Below, piece after piece: positions 28,065 to 49,938 of a DNA stretch of 64,000 bases. The notes under the pieces are model-generated. The model was not told the DNA's origin, did no database searches, and was given only the letters and a program-made list of their open reading frames with translations. Position 1 is the first letter of the stretch; each line of letters starts with the position of its first letter. The stretch comes from Agarophyton chilense. Lineage: Eukaryota; Rhodophyta; Florideophyceae; Gracilariales; Gracilariaceae. The stretch spans positions 62,001 to 126,000 of the forward strand of contig JARGXX010000121.1 of the NCBI GenBank assembly GCA_030374765.1, read 5' to 3'. A program made the position numbers and the translations under genes.

Positions 28065-29045
28065 TTAAGGCCGATCTTCAATCGTTTGATGTGATCCTTC
28101 ACCTTCGCAGTTTCGCGCCCTGAGTGATTCTTGCTCTTCACCTCCAGACCGTAGTACCTTTAATTTAGGACCTTCCGTTAAATGGGGTTCGTGCACGAGA
28201 GCACCTTCAATCCTCTGTTTAGGTGAGCCTTTTTTTCTCAATAACCACGAAGACGTGTTCTTCTTCCGAAATCGGCACCTTCGATGACCATCATTACTGT
28301 CGTCGTCATCTGACGTATCTGAATCATCAGAATCATCAGTACTGGAACTGAAACCCTCCGTACTTGACGATTCATCACTCGAATCACGTGCGTACTTCCG
28401 CTTCTTACGTCGTGACTTCGACTTCTTCGAACGAGCATCCTTCAAAGGAGCTTCTCCCTCTTCCAGCGCGACTGGTTGAGCAGTCTGCGTATGAACTGCC
28501 ACCTTCAGACGTTCTAAACGAGGTTGAACTCGAGTGAGGACTTCCTCTACATCCACAGTTAAGCCGGCTAGCGCATCGGGCGTATTCCCGTACCTCTCCA
28601 GTAGATGTTTACAATCCTCACGTAGTGTTTTCACTGATGCAGAGACCTGCTTCCCATCGTCTTGACGAACGAGTGCTTGATGCGCACTGCGTAATTGTTC
28701 GACATCATCGATAAGAGCAGCGATCTGCAATTCCAACGCAACCATGCGCACACGCGAAGCGCTTGACTCAGACTTGAGACGAAGCACTTCCCTGCGCAAA
28801 TCATCCTCTTTTTGAGGTCCGACGACCTCAGGGTCAACTACGGCTTCTGTGGTGGGCGCGACTGCCGCTGCCACAGGGGCCGGTACATCCGATAGATCTC
28901 GTTCATCATTCACCGAGCGTGAGCGGGACATCGCTTGACGATACAGCCGCTCTCCGGCTTCAACAGATGAGGCGAGCCTCGGTTTAGGGGGGGGTACCGC
29001 AGGACCAGGGCGACCAGTACTCGACTGGCTTCGGGTCTTCGGCAT
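28065..29045 (-). CDS. gag: Element C gag, N-terminal part
   Basis: ATG at 29045 starts MPKTRSQSSTGRPG, 326 codons open. It has a Pro/Ala-rich head, a helical middle (LRREVLRLKSESSASRVRMV, likely coiled coil at about residues 80-120), a basic block (KKSKSRRKKRKY, NLS-like) and a run of Ser/Asp (about residues 225-250). The same basic-then-Ser/Asp order occurs in D (52140-52290) and A (7800-7920). Confidence 0.8.
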   Translation of the reverse strand: MPKTRSQSSTGRPGPAVPPPKPRLASSVEAGERLYRQAMSRSRSVNDERDLSDVPAPVAAAVAPTTEAVVDPEVVGPQKEDDLRREVLRLKSESSASRVRMVALELQIAALIDDVEQLRSAHQALVRQDDGKQVSASVKTLREDCKHLLERYGNTPDALAGLTVDVEEVLTRVQPRLERLKVAVHTQTAQPVALEEGEAPLKDARSKKSKSRRKKRKYARDSSDESSSTEGFSSSTDDSDDSDTSDDDDSNDGHRRCRFRKKNTSSWLLRKKGSPKQRIEGALVHEPHLTEGPKLKVLRSGGEEQESLRARNCEGEGSHQTIEDRP

Positions 29046-34545: not shown

Positions 34546-35080
34546 GCTTGTCAAACAATTGTTGAAATAATGTGACCCATAAATCTTTGTTTCATTTTAT
34601 TGTTTCGAATAACTGATGGAAAGATAATTGTTAGGAGTGCATGATAACTGATACGCCTAATACATAATGATTGTTTGAATTTTGTGTCACTAAAACCATA
34701 TGTTATTCTTAAAAAAATGCTTTTTGTCGATTTAGGTGCTCATGGCAATTGATCATTTCTTTTGGTGCGGCATTCGTCAGCGTCATGCCGTATGCTACGA
34801 GAATAATCTTTGTAGCTTCATCATATTCGATGTTGTCAAAGTCATCTTCAATGAGAGCATCGTCCAAAATCCTGGGTAGAAACAAGTCAGTGGTGGCACT
34901 GTCGGTTGAGATCGGGTGATGGATGTGGAAAAGGGCTTGGACCAGTGGAAGCATGATGGTCCTCTGTTGCCACTTGGGTCTTCGAAACGTGTTTATTCAC
35001 AGTAGCGATTGATTAAAAATTGTAAAGGAACACTTCATACACGAACATGAGCACGCTTATTAAGAACCCTCACAATAATA
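34546..35080. other. No clear gene
   Basis: AT-rich. A minus-strand frame at 34954-34709 (FLPRILDDALIEDDFDNIEY...) is acidic and protein-like, but only 81 codons long with no context. It might be a gene fragment. Confidence 0.3.
35077..35080. repeat. Target-site duplication of the copia element, left copy
   Basis: AATA directly precedes the left LTR, and AATA (42071-42074) directly follows the right LTR. It is short but positioned correctly. Confidence 0.5.
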
Positions 35081-35286
35081 TGGGAAGCAGTCGCACGCAG
35101 AGCGGGAGGGCTGTTGGTTTGGTGTCTAGTATGCACTCGAGATGCGTGGTGGAACCGAGGAAGGTGGAACGGGCACAAGGTGTCCACTCTTGCTCCTCCG
35201 TCCCCAGTATCTCGGGGTGGAACAAGAGTGAGGTTTAGTATACAGCGCCGGCGGCATTGTATCAGGTGGCAAACGTGTATTGCACA
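35081..35286 (-). repeat. Copia 3' LTR
   Basis: On the plus strand it starts TGGGAAGCAGTCGCACGCAG and ends GTGTATTGCACA, matching 41871-42070 with scattered differences. The adjoining bases read AAGGCGCGGGG on the minus strand, a plausible polypurine tract (35287-35297). Confidence 0.85.
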
Positions 35287-35587: not shown

Positions 35588-36938
35588 ATGGCTCGTACCA
35601 AGCAGACGGCTCGCAAAACTGTCGGCGGAAAAACCCCAAAGCGCCAACTTGCGGGCAAAGCGGCGAGAATTACGAGCGAAATATATCTTGACCAGAATTT
35701 AAGCAAGAATATCGTGAAACTTCTTTGTTCCAAACCGCAGCGTGGCGTGCAGAAAATCTACGCAATCAAATTCGAAGGTAGCAGCAACCTGGTGCGATTT
35801 AGCGAAAACGAAGCCATTATCTCGCTTGGGCGGAAGATAACGCATTTCCTTCGGCAATTTAGAGACACTTAGTTTGGGGAGTAGATGCTATTTCGATTCG
35901 GCCTTACAGAGGCCTTGAATGACGACGAAGATCCCAATATTGCTATTGGGTACAACGCTTGGATGATAGAGAAGGTGTGGTTGTCACGAGGAGGTCGGGG
36001 TGAGATCAAGGACCAATTCTATGCTTTGGAGCATGGCAAGAGCGTCGTGTGCCGCATAGATATGCAAACTTTCCGAATCGAGTACAGTCAGACAGTCGAA
36101 GGTGATGCAACGAGAAGTAGGGTGACATATGGTGGCGAAGGAGCAGAAGGAACCTTTCACTGGGGTGGGAAGGATCGGTACGAGGCGATCAAGAGCATCC
36201 TTGCTACTTGCAGCGCACGTCCAGGTCAAAGGCTCACCGTGTTTCAAACCCGAAGCGCGCTCGACGTCTTCTCGAATCCGAAGTTTCCATCTCCATCATT
36301 CTTCTGTGCAGCTCCGCTACGAGACATTTCTATGCCTTCAAACTTCCTTAAGTAATGCATTAGCGCTCACCATTGGGACCGAGAAGGCTGCAGAATGTTG
36401 GGCGTATCTCATCGATCAGGTCAGGAAGAACTCAGACGATAATGAGGTATATCTGAACGCCATTTCAGGTCTTGGGTTTGATGATGTTATTGAGATTGAG
36501 CATTGGAACCGGAAGGCGCAAAGGGAGGTTCGAGGGAAGTTTCGGGACCTCAAGGATATGCAGGGGTTTGTGAAGGAAAGGATCCGTGTTGTTAGCCTCG
36601 AGTATCTTCGTGATGGGACTGGACACTGAGAAGAAAACTTTGATTTGGATGACTTTCTAGATAGCGGAAAAGTCTTCCTTGCCTGTCTTCAGGCTATTGA
36701 CGGATACCTGCATGCAATTTGCATAGATGGGGAACGCAACGTGATAATTGATCCAGTGGAGAAGTATCACTTGGATCTCACGCAGTTTGCCCTGGAGTCC
36801 TGTATAGGATCCGACCGTTCTTTCAGTCACATTGCGGACTGTCGCGTAGTGCGCTTGCTTCCAGAGAAGAAGGGTGGGAAACGCACTCGCCGCGGGAATG
36901 AACGTCGTCACCAAGAAGGTTCTTCAAACAGTGTCTGA
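35588..36938 (+). pseudogene. Copia opposite-strand ORF beginning with a histone H3 tail mimic
   Basis: ATG 35588 begins MARTKQTARKTVGGKTPKRQ. Residues 1-26 align without gaps to the histone H3 tail: K4, R8, K9, K14, K23 and R26 are kept, S10 is T, R17/K18 are swapped to K/R, and K27 is I. No histone fold follows; the next 65 residues (including VKLLCSKPQRGVQKIYAIKF) are unrecognised. After two stops (35870-35884) the same frame continues to 36355 (GYNAWMIEKVWLSRGGRGEI), then shifts frame to 36629 and, past one stop, to 36938. The last part contains FLACLQAIDGYLHAICIDG and NVIIDPVEKY, and ends with a basic NLS-like KKGGKRTRRGNERR. It lies tail-to-tail with pol, 20 bp apart. Histone-tail mimicry is inferred from sequence only. 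Confidence 0.75.
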
Positions 36939-36958: not shown

Positions 36959-38404
36959 CTAAGCTTTAGGGTCCCATGCCCCATGACGGTGGTCGAGGGT
37001 AGATATGATACCTTGGCTGAGTATTCCTTGAACCATAGCTTGGTTTAATTGAGTAAATGAATGATGATTGCCTTTTGTTAACGCGTCGGCTAAGTTGAGG
37101 CTTCCCGCTATCCAACGCATGGAGGATATTTCTCCAGCTTCGAAGGAGTCACGGAGGCACGACACGGTGGGGCGCAATCGGTAGTCTCGGTATTCGTAAA
37201 GGGTAGTGATCGTTGAGTACAAACCAAATGAGTCGACGTAAAGGACGAGCGAACCGAGATCCGATACAAGAACTTCCATGCATTCCCTAAGTAGTATGGA
37301 TCTGTCTGCGGAATCTGCTGCCGCAAGAATTTCAGCACCAATTGAAATAAAGGATATGCGTCCTTGCTTCGCGCTATGCCAGTCGACGATGTGGTAGGGA
37401 ACGTTCTCACCTTGGGAGAAGGCGATGCCACTGATGTAGCCAGTTTGACCGTAGGATGATTTTCCAGTGCTGGCGTCAGAGAACGTCACTATGTGGCAAG
37501 CTTTCATGTGATACGATACCATCGCAGATCTCGGAGCCATGTACTTCACGACCGGACGTAGCTTAAAGACGAGGTTGAGGTTCTGGTTTGCCTGCAGAAG
37601 ATGCCTAACGCGCATCTCTGGGACCAGCTGCTGCATAAAGCTGGCAGCGTACGCGGCTTGACGCAGCACACCATGGCCAAGGGAGTTGAGATTTCCAGCA
37701 AGAGACTGGATTTCTCGGACTTCTTGTTGGGGGCATAGATCCTCGGACTGCTTCCTCATATCCCTCGAGATCGGAATGGGGGCGAGCTTTTCCATAAACT
37801 CTGCCATGGATATCTCGATCAAGAAGTCTTCATAATGCCGAATCCAAAGGCGGCTGAAGATAATCTCGTTCTCAAAGAGTGCTCTGCCAACCTTGAAGCG
37901 AACTGAGAGAGCCTTGGAGGATTTCTTCATCTCACTCTTTGATCCGGCAAGAAGAAGATCGTCCTCGAATTTGGCCAGGAGTAGAGATATACATGCATGG
38001 TCGTCCGACAATATGAACATCTGTAGCATACCAGGGACAGTAGGGAATCCGTAGTCGCACAACCATTCCTCGATGCATAGCTGCCAGAGACGACCGGACT
38101 GTACTAGGCTATAAGCTGGCTTGAGTAGCTTCCATAATTCGTCTACGAACTGTGTCCATCCCTTTGGAGGCCGCATGTATATATCTCGTTTGAGGTCGCC
38201 TGATTGCAGATACGCTCTAGAGATTTCAATGCTTCCAAGGGTGAGGTGTAGCAAAGTTGCGAGGGAAAGCAGAAGTCTGATGCAGGTGAATTGAGCCGTA
38301 GAGGAGTCAGATCGAATGTTGTCCTTTTGGGAATCCCAATTTCCATGAGGTACCAGACGGCACTTGAGCTTGAGCTTACCATTCTCTCCATCGAACTTCG
38401 TCAC
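36959..38404 (-). CDS. pol: Copia reverse transcriptase and RNase H
   Basis: An open frame of 481 codons. RT: KLKCRLVPHGNWDSQKDNIR, LHLTLGSIEISRAYLQSGDL (first catalytic residue region), RDIYMRPPKGW, and the catalytic loop LLLAKFEDDLLLAG, where copia normally has YVDD, so the paired aspartates remain in a changed context. RNase H: VTFSDASTGKS (first D), ISIGAEILAAADSADRSILL (E), VLYVDSFGLYS (D) and NLADALTKG at the end. Coding continues upstream past a short break at 38405-38467 in the same frame. Confidence 0.85.
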   Translation of the reverse strand: MTKFDGENGKLKLKCRLVPHGNWDSQKDNIRSDSSTAQFTCIRLLLSLATLLHLTLGSIEISRAYLQSGDLKRDIYMRPPKGWTQFVDELWKLLKPAYSLVQSGRLWQLCIEEWLCDYGFPTVPGMLQMFILSDDHACISLLLAKFEDDLLLAGSKSEMKKSSKALSVRFKVGRALFENEIIFSRLWIRHYEDFLIEISMAEFMEKLAPIPISRDMRKQSEDLCPQQEVREIQSLAGNLNSLGHGVLRQAAYAASFMQQLVPEMRVRHLLQANQNLNLVFKLRPVVKYMAPRSAMVSYHMKACHIVTFSDASTGKSSYGQTGYISGIAFSQGENVPYHIVDWHSAKQGRISFISIGAEILAAADSADRSILLRECMEVLVSDLGSLVLYVDSFGLYSTITTLYEYRDYRLRPTVSCLRDSFEAGEISSMRWIAGSLNLADALTKGNHHSFTQLNQAMVQGILSQGIISTLDHRHGAWDPKA

Positions 38405-39348: not shown

Positions 39349-40344
39349 TCAGGAATGTGGCTTTGGAGAGGATCTAAAGTCCGTGAGATACACTTGACGA
39401 GTTTCCCTCAGATGAGGTTCGTCGGGAAGGAGCGTTTGGACAAATGTACGGATTGTCTTGTTGCTCGATTCAAGGCTTCCAGTTTTGTTGTGGCGTCGAG
39501 CAGGCGGTGGTTCGAATGAAATCTGATTCTCGGCACACAATCGCTGAATGGAGTCGTTATTGAACTCTGGGTCTTCCGATAATTTTGATGGAGGCCCAAA
39601 GACATCAAACCAATGAATGACAATCATGCGAGCGGTATCAGTCATATCCCTTGAAGTCATCAAGACAGTAACGGAGAGACCAGTTGATATATCCTTCATA
39701 TGCAGAATGGGGAGGTTTCCAAACTCGCGTATGAATAGGAAATCCACCTGAAGGTGCTCGTTGAACTCACCCAGTATCCTCTTGAGTGATATCGTTCGAG
39801 AGTGTAATGGCAGGCCAGACCTTTTACGTGAAGTGCAAGAATTGTAGGCCTGTTCGAACTGACCAGAAAGTGTTCGATTTAGTAACCCGCCTCGACTGCA
39901 AAGCTTTTTCATGTCCTTGGTGGAGAGGTGGGACTGATAGTGAAGCCTTGTGGCGAAGCGGCGGGCATGGGTCTGATCCATGCCGTCATTTCCAGAGAAT
40001 TCGGCGATCGGATTAGGATTCCTAGAGAGAAAGGAAGAATGAGAAGAGAAGAAGGATTTGAACGACTTCGTTATAGCAGGAACGACGAATAACTGTGTTC
40101 GGCGGTCCTTTTCCTCTCCTAGGACGAACGTTGACAGAATTGCGTCGTCTCGAGAGATTCCGACCGAAACGGGCACTACGAGCGTGTTGTCCGAACCCAT
40201 GAGGTCCAAACGTGACACTATGTCGTTCCCCATTAGCAGAGGACCGTCTCCTTCCGTAATGTAGAACTTTATGTCTACTACCACATCGTTGAGTCCTTTG
40301 ATCTTTACCAAATACGAGTTTCGGATTTGAACATTCTGGATCAA
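39349..40344 (-). CDS. pol: Copia protease end and integrase core
   Basis: 331 codons. The front is the C-terminal half of the aspartic protease (GDGPLLMGNDIVSRLDLMG). The pre-integrase zinc region contains RLHYQSHLSTKDMKKLC. The catalytic core shows HLQVDFLFIREFGNLPILHM (first D), KLSEDPEFNND (second D) and KTGSLESSNKTIRTF (E). The integrase lies before RT, the defining copia order. Confidence 0.8.
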   Translation of the reverse strand: MIQNVQIRNSYLVKIKGLNDVVVDIKFYITEGDGPLLMGNDIVSRLDLMGSDNTLVVPVSVGISRDDAILSTFVLGEEKDRRTQLFVVPAITKSFKSFFSSHSSFLSRNPNPIAEFSGNDGMDQTHARRFATRLHYQSHLSTKDMKKLCSRGGLLNRTLSGQFEQAYNSCTSRKRSGLPLHSRTISLKRILGEFNEHLQVDFLFIREFGNLPILHMKDISTGLSVTVLMTSRDMTDTARMIVIHWFDVFGPPSKLSEDPEFNNDSIQRLCAENQISFEPPPARRHNKTGSLESSNKTIRTFVQTLLPDEPHLRETRQVYLTDFRSSPKPHS

Positions 40345-41854: not shown

Positions 41855-41869
41855 GCTGGGCCCATAACT
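41855..41869 (-). promoter_or_regulatory. Copia primer site: anticodon region of initiator tRNA-Met
   Basis: The plus strand GCTGGGCCCATAACT matches, except for the last base, the stem-loop around the CAU anticodon of eukaryotic initiator tRNA-Met; the element's sense strand is complementary. Priming from this internal cut is known for Drosophila copia and yeast Ty5. It lies one base from the LTR. Confidence 0.75.
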
Positions 41870-41870
41870 A

Positions 41871-42070
41871 TGGGAAGCATTCGCACGCAGAGCGGGAGGG
41901 CTGTTGATTTGGTGTCTAGTATGCACTCGCGCGGTGGAACAGAGAAGGTGGAACGGGCACAAGGTGTCCCCTCTTGCTCCTCCGTCCCCAGTGTCTCGGG
42001 GTGGAGCAAGAGTGAGGTTTAGTATGCAGCGCCGGCGGTATTGTGCCAGGTGGCAATCGTGTATTGCACA
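41871..42070 (-). repeat. Copia 5' LTR
   Basis: Starts TGGGAAGCATTCGCACGCAG and ends GTGTATTGCACA on the plus strand. It is 200 bp, about six bases shorter than the 3' copy because of small indels. Confidence 0.85.
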
Positions 42071-44260: not shown

Positions 44261-47110
44261 ATGGTGCATCCTCCAAGTGAAGCTAAGGATCGAAAAAGAT
44301 ACACCCGCATCACCTTTAGGTATTCAATTAATGGCGACATTCTTCTGCTAGTTGCTATGAGTTCTGATGAAAAAAGACAACGTCATGGGTCAGCCCTACC
44401 TCCAAGCGTGTCGCTTTTGGAAGAGAGTACTGTGCCACAAGGCGTTGCGATGGAATCCACAACATACTCTTCGGAAACTATTAAGAGAAATGCACGGTCT
44501 GATATAATTCAAACGTCACAAGAAAACGAAAGGGACATCAGGCTCGCAGCTGAAAATCGGGAGCATTCCAAGCAGGGCAACTACAATAGCAACGATGAAA
44601 GACATTTCGGCAGTGCAGATAGATTCGTTCCAACAATGCCGTCGACACTTGCGAACCGCAACATAAATGTGCTTGATTTGGATGATTTCAGTGGTTCACA
44701 ATTTGTAAGCAATGATGCCGAACACGACCAAATGGAGGAAGAGGAAGGAAATGAGAAAAATAACACCAGTGTCCAATTCACAAATCAATTTTTACACATA
44801 GACGTCCCAGCTACGGGGTTGAAGGATGTGTCTCGTGTGAAGAAAGACCTGTATCACGACAGGGTTCAGGCTAAGAACGGTTTAATGAGTGGCTTGCACC
44901 GAGCAGTGAGTTCAATTAAAGTCTCAGATAGCCGAGCACGTGTCTTGAAAGGAAACTCCTTGACAAGTGCGCCATCTATGGAACGAACAAGATCTCCTCG
45001 GGATCCATCTGGAGTTACCAACATCCGCCAACTCTCTCGAATGCTGTCTTTCAAGAAGACGAAGTCATCTTCCTCAAGCACATACCAAGCAGGAGTTACT
45101 TCGGTTGTCGATTCTAACTGCATTTCACCGAATTCGAATATCCCACAAGAACGCAGTTCTTCTCAAGAAGCGGTCCCGACTTCTCGACATTCAAGAAGCC
45201 AGATTGACGCAAAATGCAACACTCTACGTGCCGAAGAGGTGGGGCCTGGAAACGAACAGAAGGCAGGAACCCAACTGCTTAATAGCACCACCCAAACATC
45301 TGATAGATCTTTAATTCAGCGGCAGAGAGAAGGTACCACACAGAAGCCATCTGATAGGCGACAAACCATTCGCCGGATTGGACGCAATATATCCATAAGC
45401 CGTAAAGGGCAGAGAACTACTTACTGTGGTGGTGCAGAGGTAAATCGCACAAACGCTCACAATATATCTTCCGGCACCACTGACGGGCCTCAGCAGTGTG
45501 ATGTCTGTTCCTCAGAAGTTCCGAGGGGCGGAAGACCTTCCAGCAACACCCACAGGCCTCGGCCGTGTGGTCTTTGTTCCCCAGAGGTTCCGAGAACGGG
45601 CGGAAGATCTAGTCTCAATCAAGTGGGTCGTTTGTTGTCGCTTAATCGTCGAAAAGCACATGAGAGCATGAAGAATCGGAGGTATCAGCATGACGCAGGC
45701 TGTAAAAAGAGTCAAGTTAAGGAAGAGGTGTCGTTCAAAAAAGGCAAACATTCGTCTTTGGCTGCTATAGGACGTGCGATTTCACTATCCCGAGGCAAGT
45801 CGGCAATCAAGAAGCTAGATCAGGGCCCTATCCACGACGTTCAGTCTGGCATTGCCAGCTCTGGAATTGATTCCAAGTCAAACCCACACGCTCAAGAAAT
45901 CAGCGAAGAAAAACAGAATCAATTGCTGGCGGGAACGAAAGCCATCTCGGTACTGCCAGATTCTCGGAGATTGAAGGCAAATGTGGCGATCTTCGATGGC
46001 ATAGAAAACTGCATCGAATCCGTTTCTAAAGATGATGGAATGCCCAATCCAAAGCTTAAGACCATAAGCCGCATGTTTTCTTTGTCGAGACATTCTATCA
46101 CGACGGCACGCCCCTCATCGACATCCAGCATTGACAAAAATGACGAACGCTTCGAAAAAATTCAGGCTGCAGGTGCAGTGTCGCGATCTCCAAAGATGAA
46201 AAAGGAAACCGACTATGAACCCAAACTAAACGCGATTTTTGGTAAGGTCATTCTCTCGGAGATGACTACGGGACAGGAAGAGTGTACTCGGTACGCTAGA
46301 GACTCAGCGCACCTTCGTGTACCAGTCATCACTCTGGGAAAATACGCAGGACCGGTATCCCGTTCACATTGGCACACTGATGTTTTCACATTGCCCCATA
46401 ATGCAGTGAGAAGAGAATGTATTGACTTGTATGATATACTTGTTTCCATATCTCAAACGAGCAAAAGTACTGCCGCCGAAGACATCGACGACTTTGAACA
46501 ATGGTGGTCAGTAGCATATGAATTCTTCAAGTTTTACTTCGAGCTAGAACGCCGTATTTTGTTTCCTTGGGTAGACTCTGCCGGCTCTCACGAACGGGAG
46601 GTACAATCAGCTCTCAGAAAAATGAGAGGGATGAACGACAAGTTGCAAGAACATTTAGCCGTTGTGGACCGAGTGTGGAACGAAAAGACTTTTAAATCTC
46701 GGGAAGAAATGTTTGCGATGTTATACAAAGCAGTGGACAGTTTTGTTCCTCGCCTTTTAAACTACTTTGAAGATCAGGAAGTGCTTTTACCTGCTATTGT
46801 TCAAAATTATTACAAAGCCGAGGAACGTGCGCGCATAGGTAAGGAAATCGCAGCTCTATTAATTGGAGAGGGATCACGCAAGAATAGAGATGCACCCAAT
46901 CACCGGTTAGTGCTCTTGATTCGTTGGATGGACAACCCGAAGTTGGTACGCACATGGACAAGTCGATACCTGAACAGTTGGGCAAGAAATATGTATCCGA
47001 AATGGTACGAGATGTTTGAAGTCCAGCATTACCGCATTGTTAAAACATTCCAAACTCGTCGGAAGCTCTTAGAAGCAGCATTAGACCGCGAAGCACCTGG
47101 TGTCGCGTAA
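44261..47110 (+). CDS. Large protein with C-terminal hemerythrin-like domain and repeated R-x-x-S motifs
   Basis: 949 codons, no intron visible. An alternative start is Met33 (44357). Residues 1-690 are low-complexity, Ser/Lys/Arg-rich and probably disordered. They contain five copies of a motif close to I-G/S-R-x-L/I-S-L-S-R: about residues 256-265, 371-381, 454-463, 502-511 and 601-610, with a weaker one near 212-220. Two adjacent copies of a C-x2-C-S-x-E-V-P-R unit lie at 413-423 and 436-445. Residues 703-850 read as an HHE/hemerythrin helical bundle: LPHNAVRRECIDLYDIL, FYFELERRILFPW, LQEHLAVVDRV and LLNYFEDQEVLLP supply His and Glu at metal-ligand spacing. Such domains bind a di-iron centre for O2 or redox sensing; the exact role here is unknown. 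Convergent with NAD kinase, 203 bp apart. Confidence 0.8.
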   Translation: MVHPPSEAKDRKRYTRITFRYSINGDILLLVAMSSDEKRQRHGSALPPSVSLLEESTVPQGVAMESTTYSSETIKRNARSDIIQTSQENERDIRLAAENREHSKQGNYNSNDERHFGSADRFVPTMPSTLANRNINVLDLDDFSGSQFVSNDAEHDQMEEEEGNEKNNTSVQFTNQFLHIDVPATGLKDVSRVKKDLYHDRVQAKNGLMSGLHRAVSSIKVSDSRARVLKGNSLTSAPSMERTRSPRDPSGVTNIRQLSRMLSFKKTKSSSSSTYQAGVTSVVDSNCISPNSNIPQERSSSQEAVPTSRHSRSQIDAKCNTLRAEEVGPGNEQKAGTQLLNSTTQTSDRSLIQRQREGTTQKPSDRRQTIRRIGRNISISRKGQRTTYCGGAEVNRTNAHNISSGTTDGPQQCDVCSSEVPRGGRPSSNTHRPRPCGLCSPEVPRTGGRSSLNQVGRLLSLNRRKAHESMKNRRYQHDAGCKKSQVKEEVSFKKGKHSSLAAIGRAISLSRGKSAIKKLDQGPIHDVQSGIASSGIDSKSNPHAQEISEEKQNQLLAGTKAISVLPDSRRLKANVAIFDGIENCIESVSKDDGMPNPKLKTISRMFSLSRHSITTARPSSTSSIDKNDERFEKIQAAGAVSRSPKMKKETDYEPKLNAIFGKVILSEMTTGQEECTRYARDSAHLRVPVITLGKYAGPVSRSHWHTDVFTLPHNAVRRECIDLYDILVSISQTSKSTAAEDIDDFEQWWSVAYEFFKFYFELERRILFPWVDSAGSHEREVQSALRKMRGMNDKLQEHLAVVDRVWNEKTFKSREEMFAMLYKAVDSFVPRLLNYFEDQEVLLPAIVQNYYKAEERARIGKEIAALLIGEGSRKNRDAPNHRLVLLIRWMDNPKLVRTWTSRYLNSWARNMYPKWYEMFEVQHYRIVKTFQTRRKLLEAALDREAPGVA

Positions 47111-47313: not shown

Positions 47314-48483
47314 CTAATCAGTAATTTCTTGTTCGCTTTCGCGGGCCTTCTCGCCCTGAATCACTCGGTCATTCCACCTTAGACACTGGCTTACGCTTGC
47401 AAACCAGTCGCTCGTGGCATCCTTTTTGTTGAAAGTAGGTACCGCCCACGGGGAAACACTGATAATCACTTTGTCACCTTTCATCAATTCCATTCTATGT
47501 CTTCCATCAAAACTGACCCACGCAGTAGCCCTTGAGTCTTTAGGGACTTGTATCTGCAATGTCACATGATCTGGGAACAGAACTGGACGAAAAGATAGAG
47601 AATGGGGACAAATTGGAGTGAAAAGAATCGCCGGCACACTGGGGTGTACCATGCTACCTCCTGATGATAAAGAGTATGCTGTAGAACCTGTTGGTGTCGC
47701 AATGATCAGCCCATCGCCCTGAACGCGTGTCACGGGACATTCGTCTGCTAAGACCTCCAAATTTGAAAGATATGGCGCTGGGCCTCGATCGATAACTAAC
47801 TCGTTTAGAACGTGGAATTCTTGTATTCCGCACGCTGGTCCGTCAGCCAATTCATTGTGATGGAAGTTGTGAACGCATGCGTAACGAGATTCGCAACGCA
47901 GGACGATACATTTCAGACGCATTCGAGGAGTCACTTTCTTATTGTCACCTCCAAGGATTGCAGATACATCTTGTTTGAAACTGGAAAAATCGAATGGTGT
48001 GAGAAAGCCTAGCGACCCCATATTAAAAGGAACAAATGGGGGGACTCGTGTAGGGAAAAACTTGTGAAGAACGTGAAATATGAGACCGTCTCCTCCAAGG
48101 CAGATCACAAGATCGACATCTGAAGCTTCGTATTCCGAAGAAACGTGTTCATATTCACCACTCAACGCTGGTCCAACGGTGGCCGTCGATATTGGACAAA
48201 ACTGTGAAAGGGCTTTGTCCACTGCGACTAGAACGTCTGATTGGGACGATAGATACTTCAGCAGTTGCGGCAATGCAGCTAGCGCCCTGCTGGAATTTGG
48301 TGTGGCGGCGACCAGGATTAGACGCGGTTTGCTGGTCAAAGAAACGGAAAAGGGACGGCGATGAAGTTTTTGATGATGCTCTCGTGAAAAATCTGCTCCA
48401 TCGGCATATCGATTTTGGTGTTTCCGTGTCGGTGAACATACTCGCTGATCTTCTGGAAAGATTTTCCAAGTATTTTCTGCCAT
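47314..48483 (-). CDS. NADK: NAD kinase
   Basis: Phosphorylates NAD to NADP using ATP. 389 codons from ATG 48483 (MAENTWKIF); an open frame extends upstream to 48639 but has only a TTG there. After a basic, variable N-terminus of about 55 residues, the kinase fold shows VDLVICLGGDGLIFHV (GGDG at about residues 130-133, ATP/phosphate binding), PFNMGSLGFLTPF, LNELVIDRG (about 227-234) and the signature GDGLIIATPTGSTAYSLSSG (from about 256). C-terminal strands include SFDGRHRMELMKGD. All key motifs are intact and no intron is evident. Cytosolic or plastid location cannot be decided; the basic N-terminus could be a weak transit peptide. Confidence 0.95.
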   Translation of the reverse strand: MAENTWKIFPEDQRVCSPTRKHQNRYADGADFSREHHQKLHRRPFSVSLTSKPRLILVAATPNSSRALAALPQLLKYLSSQSDVLVAVDKALSQFCPISTATVGPALSGEYEHVSSEYEASDVDLVICLGGDGLIFHVLHKFFPTRVPPFVPFNMGSLGFLTPFDFSSFKQDVSAILGGDNKKVTPRMRLKCIVLRCESRYACVHNFHHNELADGPACGIQEFHVLNELVIDRGPAPYLSNLEVLADECPVTRVQGDGLIIATPTGSTAYSLSSGGSMVHPSVPAILFTPICPHSLSFRPVLFPDHVTLQIQVPKDSRATAWVSFDGRHRMELMKGDKVIISVSPWAVPTFNKKDATSDWFASVSQCLRWNDRVIQGEKARESEQEITD

Positions 48484-49938
48484 GACGGTCTTCCAGTTAT
48501 TATTGCTCAGCACTGCTCGTATGATGTGTTGTGGGCAACGCAACTCTGCAACAATCTGACGAATGAAAAAATTTGTCGAGCAGAAAGTCAAATCAGCGAT
48601 CGACCAAAGATATCGGACGCGAAACCCAACTACAGCCAACCCTTAACCCCTTTTCACTGAACATCACGCAAACATCATATCCTAACATATTTATATCTGC
48701 CCTAAACCTGTCCTTCCAGCCTTGATGGGACTCCTGAAAACTGAATTTGTGGAGGCCCAACTTCTGGCACTACTGTCCAAAGATACAATACACAAATTGT
48801 GCGTTCGCGCGGAAATACACATTAGATTTCTGTAACTGTTTACCATGTAATGCCTTACAAAAATTTTAATTCCTTGTTTCATAAGTGACTGCGTATGATG
48901 CGATTTCGTGCAATAGCGCTTCAGTGTCGAGGGTTCTCGGAGAGCCTCCATCATGCCCTTGAGAAACGTATGAGCAGTTCGTCTTCAAACTCGCGCAGAC
49001 AAACATAGGAACTTTTAGCTCGCGTAGACACTTTAAAACAACAGAAACCATTGAGTACATGAAGCGATGCAATCTAGGCCACAATACCAAAGCGGACAAA
49101 AATTGTGTGCGCCACAACACACTGAAACACTATTGCATCTATTTACCATAACGGTCAGTTTAGTATAAAAGAACGCGCCACATTCAAAACGAAAAACATC
49201 TGCCCTCCCGTGGTGCATATGGCAGTCGTAAATGTTTTGCTGAGTGCACATTAATGCAGTAAATCGGCGCCTTGCACTCAAGCGAAAGAATCAGCACATA
49301 ATAAACCGTTCCGGAGACGGACGGAAAACGGAGTCTCCGGCGGTAGGTTTTTCCGCCAGTTCCTCTGCCTCGCGACTGCACTGCACAATACGCGAGTTGA
49401 CTCAACTTTTTCTGTATTTCTCGGGACAAGCGGTTGGGAACCGCTTGTCCAAACCGTAAACCCAACACTTGTATCCAATTTTTGGACCAAAATGAACCCC
49501 AATCGTTTTCACAAATACCGAAAGCCGGTCTAAAAGTTTTAGTCTACCCAAAATCCAACAAGTTTTGGGCCAGCGCCCTAAAAGCCTCCTCACGTCCTAA
49601 TTCTCATCGCCTGCCCTCTGTTTCACCGAAAAGGGTACGCACCCTCTTTTGACGATGTGCATCAAATCTCTACCAAACCTCGTTGTGTGCGTTGCCCGTG
49701 TCTTCCAATTTTTTGCGCCAACTATCTATGTGGCGATAAAAACAACTGCTGGACGTCCAAATGGTGACAAACATAGGCTTGTGTACAGCAAACCTTGCGA
49801 GCTGTTGTCAAATGTCTGAAATCTTGCAGCGAAGATTGGACTGCACACAAATTGGTCCATATATTAGCAACTATAGGCATCGTCGAAGGCATTTGAAAGC
49901 CACTAACCATTTTACGCCTAATCTCTAACTGTTGTGCG
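48484..49938. other. Gap upstream of NAD kinase with inverted repeats
   Basis: No gene. The first 300 bp probably contain the NAD kinase promoter. Around 49300-49450 there is a cluster of short perfect inverted repeats (listed separately). Elsewhere only short, inconsistent frames occur. Confidence 0.4.
49311..49450. repeat. Cluster of inverted repeats
   Basis: Three hairpins in 140 bp: CCGGAGAC (49311-49318) with GTCTCCGG (49333-49340); GTTGA-C-TCAAC near 49397-49407; and GGACAAGCGGTT (49424-49435) with AACCGCTTGTCC (49439-49450) around GGG. It could be part of a small inverted-repeat transposon, a structured RNA or a protein-binding site. No target duplication was identified. Confidence 0.5.

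Follow-up and report, generated by a model that had tools for sequence, protein, structure and literature searches.

LTR retrotransposons with antisense accessory genes have been on record since the 1990s, and in the pertinent passages of a review of the field the function of these genes is still unassigned (PMC7264820). The class called aORF-3R is exemplified, in elements of plants and fungi, by gene23 of Grande and by the corresponding genes of RIRE2, Retand, PvRetro13 and Boty. As described in those passages, the products of these genes display no clear similarity to other proteins, with the exception of an SMC domain in PvRetro13 and of a transposase-28 domain in Retand (PMC7264820). Capture of histone H3 by transposable elements and viral mimics of the H3 tail are known as well. 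The combination described below did not turn up in the literature searched: among the open-licence PMC articles listed there, no retrotransposon-borne H3-tail mimic was found by title or displayed abstract.

A Ty1/copia element of the red alga Agarophyton chilense brings these themes together. It carries an accessory gene of the aORF-3R type, antisense, located between pol and the 3' LTR, present in most copies and conserved as coding sequence. The putative protein, borne by the element and not a histone, displays a long identity with the tail of H3, and may on this ground be counted among H3-tail mimics.

The element and its antisense frame

The window, that is the whole stretch of DNA analysed, spans 64,000 nucleotides (G000:C121:62001-126000) of a searched genome of 80 Mb in 135 contigs. 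It harbours a Ty1/copia LTR retrotransposon, recognised by an RVT_2 reverse transcriptase, two LTRs and an integrase match upstream of the reverse transcriptase, an order which is that of copia (the Pfam rve match is weak). The element reads on the minus strand and the frames of the window copy are broken. Its LTRs (35079-35286 and 41869-42070) align with 91.1% identity over 213 columns, with 12 mismatches and 3 gap openings. Adjoining the right LTR on its inner side is a stretch similar to the anticodon arm of initiator tRNA-Met, which we take to be a copia-type priming site. The features are as follows.

35079-35286, minus strand: 3' LTR of the copia element (left/right LTR alignment; left homology edge at 35072-35086 in 20/20 loci)
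35588-35872, plus strand: first part of the antisense ORF, H3-like tail and start of the downstream domain, ending at the in-frame stop 35870-35872
35591-35671, plus strand: H3-like tail, residues 1-27 in H3 numbering (20/26 identical over residues 1-26; counts from 17 copies)
35669-35671, plus strand: Ile codon at the position of H3 K27 (I in 16/17 copies, V in 1/17)
35885-36355, plus strand: the ORF carried on in an unchanged frame, in a broken copy (homology among copies; the ORFs of L016 and L017 are homologous to the gypsy ORF)
36129-36629, plus strand: C-terminal part in the +1 frame; the candidate for the catalytic Cys is at 36333-36335 (aligned Cys column)
36645-36938, plus strand: last stretch of the C-terminal part; the candidate residues are His at 36711-36713 and Asp at 36750-36752 (aligned columns)
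36959-38404, minus strand: copia pol, reverse transcriptase part (RVT_2, Pfam E 8.9e-18)
39349-40344, minus strand: copia pol, weak integrase core match (rve, Pfam E 0.0056, under the curated cut-off)
41869-42070, minus strand: 5' LTR of the copia element (LTR pair alignment)

An initial annotation of this DNA, made from its letters, had noticed a frame opening at 35588 with the H3 tail, isoleucine standing at position 27, and then leaving H3 entirely; it had placed this frame between pol and the 3' LTR, tail-to-tail with pol. The comparison bears this out, with pol at 36959-38404 on the minus strand and the 3' LTR at 35079-35286. The ORF begins MARTKQTARKTVGGKTPKRQLAGKAARITSE and aligns without a gap with host H3, 20 of 26 residues being identical, with K4, R8, K9, K14, K23 and R26 retained and I at 27. 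No histone fold was found downstream of the tail, either as a Pfam PF00125 match or among the 13 histone places of the genome, from which the ORF is absent; Pfam matches to the ORF were weak (Rad9, E 0.054; PAF histone-like domain, E 0.12). What did not stand is the description of 35588-36938 as a single open frame, since the window copy is interrupted by stops and by a frame change: after the stop at 35870-35872 the same frame resumes over 35885-36355; the final portion (36129-36629 and 36645-36938) lies in the +1 frame, with a further stop at 36627-36629. Longer open versions exist at two other loci, with 381 codons in L016 and 276 in L017, the count starting in each at a GTG that precedes the ATG.

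The position of the start was checked in 16 of 17 copies, all but L023. An in-frame stop is present at most 240 bases upstream of the ATG in 15 of the 16, and no in-frame ATG precedes the H3-like start in 14 of them; in L019 the ATG is lost. The upstream stops and the want of an earlier in-frame ATG make the H3-like residues the very N-terminus of the protein, as they are in H3.

The window contains other genes. At 47317-48639 (minus strand) lies a NAD kinase gene (Pfam NAD_kinase_C, E 1.1e-35), and at 44261-47107 (plus strand) a 949-codon open frame with no Pfam match at E 0.001. Similar Ser/Asp-rich open frames are seen at 28065-29045 of the window and, beside another copy of the element, at L017:6191-7075; this frame is perhaps the gag of another LTR family.

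Distribution, selection and relatives of the gene

The first 273 bases of the ORF match 37 DNA stretches in the whole genome, and the ORF protein gives 71 matches, some of which are pieces of one copy and three of which are host H3 genes. Considering pol, in a count that draws on 47 of 92 pol match rows (identity at least 57%) and on part of the ORF match rows, with near-identical copies on C14, C81, C82 and C106 counted apart, an antisense ORF was found downstream of pol in 31 of 36 merged places and not found in the other five. The N-terminal part was found in 27 of these 31, and the spacing between pol and ORF is 25-36 bp in 24 of them. Twenty of the family's places were fetched, a set outside which more divergent copies lie. 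Homology begins at the LTR edge (35072-35086) in all twenty, and it covers the ORF start, in separate pieces from LTR edge to ORF at L013 and L019; it reaches pol in 17, at L016 by 41 bases only, and ends before pol at L017, L022 and L023. With 37 DNA stretches, 71 protein matches and 31 of 36 pol places, a chance match is rejected. Related copia families exist in the same genome, with 44% pol identity for three of them (G000 C100:285634, C3:940903 and C73:530635); in these three and in others, pol frames of 1137-1192 codons are open.

Coding selection was assessed on 17 of 21 aligned copies, L025-L028 being left out as near-identical to L024. Variants common to at least two copies are distributed 88/78/168 over codon positions 1/2/3 (p 3e-10), and private variants 223/222/228 (p 0.95); many copies have stops. 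This pattern shows, at the level of the aligned copies, that the ORF was selected and kept as a protein during the active life of the copia family, and that its decay was neutral later. Differences fixed between two subfamilies are distributed 25/16/58 over the ORF. In the coding frame pN/pS is 0.45, as against 0.99-1.15 in four other frames. One reverse-strand frame reaches 0.54 overall and, within the tail, 0.47, which is the coding-frame value there; at L017, the reverse strand has an open frame of 223 codons that overlaps the tail. The frame is settled by the homology that the ORF shows with H3 and with the gypsy ORF described below. Within the tail, shared variants (4/6/10, p 0.25) and fixed differences (1/1/5) are too few to stand alone. 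Mean conservation is about equal in the tail (0.842) and in the remainder of the ORF (0.823-0.834), and that of codon 28, which carries I27, is 0.941, with 38 of 377 codons higher.

The initial annotation had asked whether intact copies keep the H3-like start with dN/dS below 1, and had named two outcomes that would speak against it: family members lacking the ORF or the H3 tail, or a one-off fragment of a host H3 gene. The ORF is there in 31 of 36 pol places (27 with its N-terminal part), selection is visible both in a pN/pS of 0.45 and in the concentration of shared variants at third positions, and neither of the adverse outcomes was encountered. In particular, a one-off insertion of host H3 is rejected by the LTR-to-ORF homology across loci together with the codon pattern of shared variants.

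The gene extends to another type of element. At L047:2216-3487 (minus strand) and L048:1397-2668 (plus strand), Ty3/gypsy elements, assigned as such by an RNase H upstream of the integrase in L048, carry, downstream of pol, an antisense ORF that is open over 424 codons. This ORF can be aligned with that of copia throughout its length (at 23-27% for the longer of the copia pieces) and, used as a query, yields 101 genome matches, which range from nearly identical copies to those in copia elements. The alignments show the copia accessory gene to have a full-length relative in a Ty3/gypsy family of the same genome. Its start, MAVTRQRVRAQRTRRVPRSHVRGLAMRVS, agrees with H3 in register at 10 of 29 positions (p 7e-5 by shuffling); when it is compared with the string of the copia tail, other offsets, from -8 to 8, give at most 4 matches. 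The two families have in common G22 and a hydrophobic residue at 27 (V in gypsy). The gypsy relative lost K4, K9, K14 and K23 and kept the basic character. A profile built from copia and gypsy ORFs matches H3 chains of the PDB at E 1e-4, and the best 60 of 130 matches to the whole profile are H3-type chains, hit through the tail. Between L047 and L048, both intact, 3 codon differences are synonymous and 13 non-synonymous, without bias as to codon position; in this pair alone, no constraint is visible.

In the protein database the gypsy ORF retrieved one protein, EukProt P0002 (GEZJ01002355.1, transcript-derived by its name, the source strand not being given), 98% identical over 94% of the query. 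P0002 begins at Met 26 of the gypsy ORF, i.e. after the tail. For the copia ORF, none of 4596 candidates in that database reached E 0.001, nor did any of 99 candidates reach E 0.1 when codons 27-125 alone were used; there was no match to the ORF in phage and plasmid collections, and no relative in viral contigs. Among other genes of the alga, chlorophyll a/b-binding genes gave 9 matches in the genome, some of them pieces of one gene; the solved structure closest to one of their products is chain 72 of 7y5e, presumably a Porphyridium purpureum assembly.

Downstream of the tail, a Cys, then a His, then an Asp align in copia, in gypsy and in other repeat families (L053-L055). In seven aligned rows, some decayed or shortened, only the Cys and one Gly are invariant, His and Asp not being present in all; His is lost in some decayed copia copies. 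Papain-like and C39-like cysteine peptidases have their catalytic residues in the order Cys, His, Asp, and the C-terminal part, with this same order, might be such a peptidase, a guess drawn from the order of the residues. Pfam and PDB searches with this part returned nothing convincing, and the structure of P0002 predicted from one sequence has a pLDDT of 35 and is not reliable. Relatives of the domain are antisense beside other copia pol genes too, for example on C11, C100 and C131. In all, the Cys/His/Asp domain was seen in several other repeat families of the genome (L053, L054, L055, L050 and L052), sometimes opposite copia pol, and it is perhaps an accessory gene pool common to retroelements.

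What the H3-like tail may do

At least 14 of the 17 copies retain A1, R2, T3, K4, Q5, T6, A7, R8, K9 and S10, and likewise G12, G13, K14, P16, Q19, L20, K23, A25 and R26, the latter being present in 14 of 17 copia copies. Residue 27 is I in 16 copies, with both ATT and ATC in use, and V in one. Elsewhere the tail departs from H3: T11 is replaced by V in 15 copies and by D in two, K18 by R in 13 and T22 by G in 14, A15 gives way mostly to T or P, and residue 17 is K or R in 15. Identity to H3 is 15-21 of 26 residues in 16 of the 17 copies, and 20 of 25 in L019. A divergent copy, L057 (388-582, minus strand), reads MGRTKQTARKSTGRTALRRQIARKAARASSD, with S10-T11 as in H3 and A at 27; when it served as the query of a genome search, nothing else matched it from end to end. 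K27 is kept in all three H3 genes of the host. Recent capture from a present host H3 gene is unsupported, third bases agreeing in 5-11 of 20-21 shared codons. Since the H3 paralogs of the host are themselves unlike one another, with 63-66 of 78 bases identical, the age of the capture is unreadable from third bases.

The reading that we favour, while holding it to be evenly balanced between true and false, is that of an antisense accessory gene whose H3-tail mimic would engage host chromatin enzymes and weaken silencing of the element, possibly as a PRC2 inhibitor of the K27I type. The free H3-like N-terminus would dock on host readers and writers of the H3 tail, and the accessory protein, acting in trans, would weaken the silencing of the element. 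R26 followed by isoleucine might enter the channel by which E(z) receives the lysine, in the manner of oncohistone H3K27M/I and EZHIP. The C-terminal Cys/His/Asp domain, if it is a cysteine-peptidase-like effector, would be carried to chromatin proteins by the tail.

Its most specific form, in which the retrotransposon encodes a natural, oncohistone-like inhibitor of PRC2 of the K27I type, blocking H3K27 methylation and disarming its silencer in a lineage whose repeats bear this mark, must be considered unlikely as things stand. It derives from the change of K to I at 27 after an intact R26, a substitution reported to repress H3K27 methylation. R26 followed by Ile is what is observed in copia copies, with V instead of Ile in gypsy and A in L057. 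In humans, K27I of H3.3 accompanies loss of H3K27me3, and the same article cites systematic tests in which K27I was the sole substitution besides K27M with a repressive effect (PMC4654747); another source has the effect of K27I present to a lesser extent (PMC6337846). As for Cyanidioschyzon merolae, another red alga, half of its repetitive elements (50%) are described as covered by H3K27me3 (PMC5405695). In Agarophyton, markers of PRC2, identified at the domain level only, consist of an E(z)-type CXC domain in two places (G000 C88:1355626 and C115:956417) and a VEFS box in two places (C80:666604 and C92:185568); parts of PRC2 may be duplicated in this genome. The initial annotation had seen in the loss of K27 a way to avoid Polycomb-type marking. 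This idea may have to be reversed, as the tail may act as an inhibitor of PRC2 and not just evade its mark. I27 could also simply mark the edge of the captured piece of H3.

The tail could, however, be nothing other than a ready-made basic peptide, taken from H3 for nuclear import or nucleic-acid binding without specific mimicry, that would bring the accessory protein, perhaps the pre-integration complex, into the nucleus. We see this as possible, if doubtful. It would account for basic residues that persist despite changes of the H3 letters (K or R at 17 in 15 of 17 copies, R at 18 in 13) and for a gypsy relative that retains a basic character without the modifiable lysines, and the aORF-3R product of Grande is stated to be nuclear (PMC7264820). 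Yet the tail begins exactly at the N-terminus, as H3 does, and the non-basic residues A1, T3, Q5, T6, A7, G12, G13, P16, L20 and A25 persist in 14-16 of the 17 copies. This retention exceeds the needs of an import signal, an argument that is not decisive as the whole ORF is about equally conserved.

Recognition of H3 tails already serves retroelements: the chromodomain integrases of chromoviruses use it, in the reverse direction with respect to a mimic. On this precedent, the element-borne and selected gene could tether the integration machinery to chromatin with H3-tail readers, governing target choice rather than countering silencing. The gene is, however, separate from the integrase and antisense to it, and we deem this improbable. 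Still less credible is a tail acting as a pseudo-substrate of its own peptidase-like domain, or an activity that would clip H3 tails. The aligned Cys, His and Asp of several repeat families are here joined to an H3 tail, but no peptidase family was matched, the predicted structure is unreliable (pLDDT 35), and the stretches fetched at L053-L055 displayed no H3-like start, although the true starts there are not fixed. Finally, a functionless, fortuitous fragment of host H3 or an antisense shadow frame, which the broken window copy and the stops of many copies might suggest, is highly improbable, being contradicted by the codon-position pattern of shared variants in an ORF that is family-wide, was selected while the family was active, and is homologous in copia and gypsy.

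The family offers a legible handle on the function of aORF-3R genes, as it combines a selected protein, an H3-tail start and a change tied to loss of H3K27me3 in human H3. The question of elements fighting silencing via histone mimicry becomes directly testable with peptides. Should the inhibition of PRC2 be true, the K27I principle would have a natural use outside tumours.

Comparison with known systems

Several systems resemble this one in part; in what follows, each is taken as described in the relevant passages of the sources cited. Influenza NS1 is, like the algal protein, a non-histone protein encoded by a parasite and endowed with a segment resembling the H3 tail; its mimic is located at the C-terminus (PMC12937675), whereas that of Agarophyton belongs to a retrotransposon and takes up 26 residues at the extreme N-terminus. 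In oncohistones H3K27M/K27I and in EZHIP, an Arg is followed by a hydrophobic residue at the position of K27, as it is here (PMC4654747, PMC6337846, PMC12713659). EZHIP is a host gene of placental mammals, with a mimic comprising VRMR (PMC12713659), whereas inhibition of PRC2 in Agarophyton is a proposal that reads function from residues.

Fungal hAT DNA transposons provide a case where a transposable element multiplied a coding sequence derived from H3, with the globular domain in Pyrenophora (PMC6710886, PMC3538342). By contrast, the LTR element of Agarophyton carries the tail only, fused to another protein and antisense; being an LTR element without a histone fold, it is not an hAT-H3L transposon. 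In bdelloid rotifers, ORF3 genes illustrate how one accessory gene may be common to unrelated types of retroelements, as is the case here for copia and gypsy; they encode other enzymes, a DEDDy exonuclease and a GDSL esterase (PMC5408684).

In arrangement the likeness is to the aORF-3R genes, which are also placed between pol and the 3' LTR, antisense, present in most copies and conserved (PMC7264820). The Agarophyton gene differs from them in joining an H3-tail N-terminus to a C-terminal Cys/His/Asp domain, and in being common to copia and gypsy elements within one genome.
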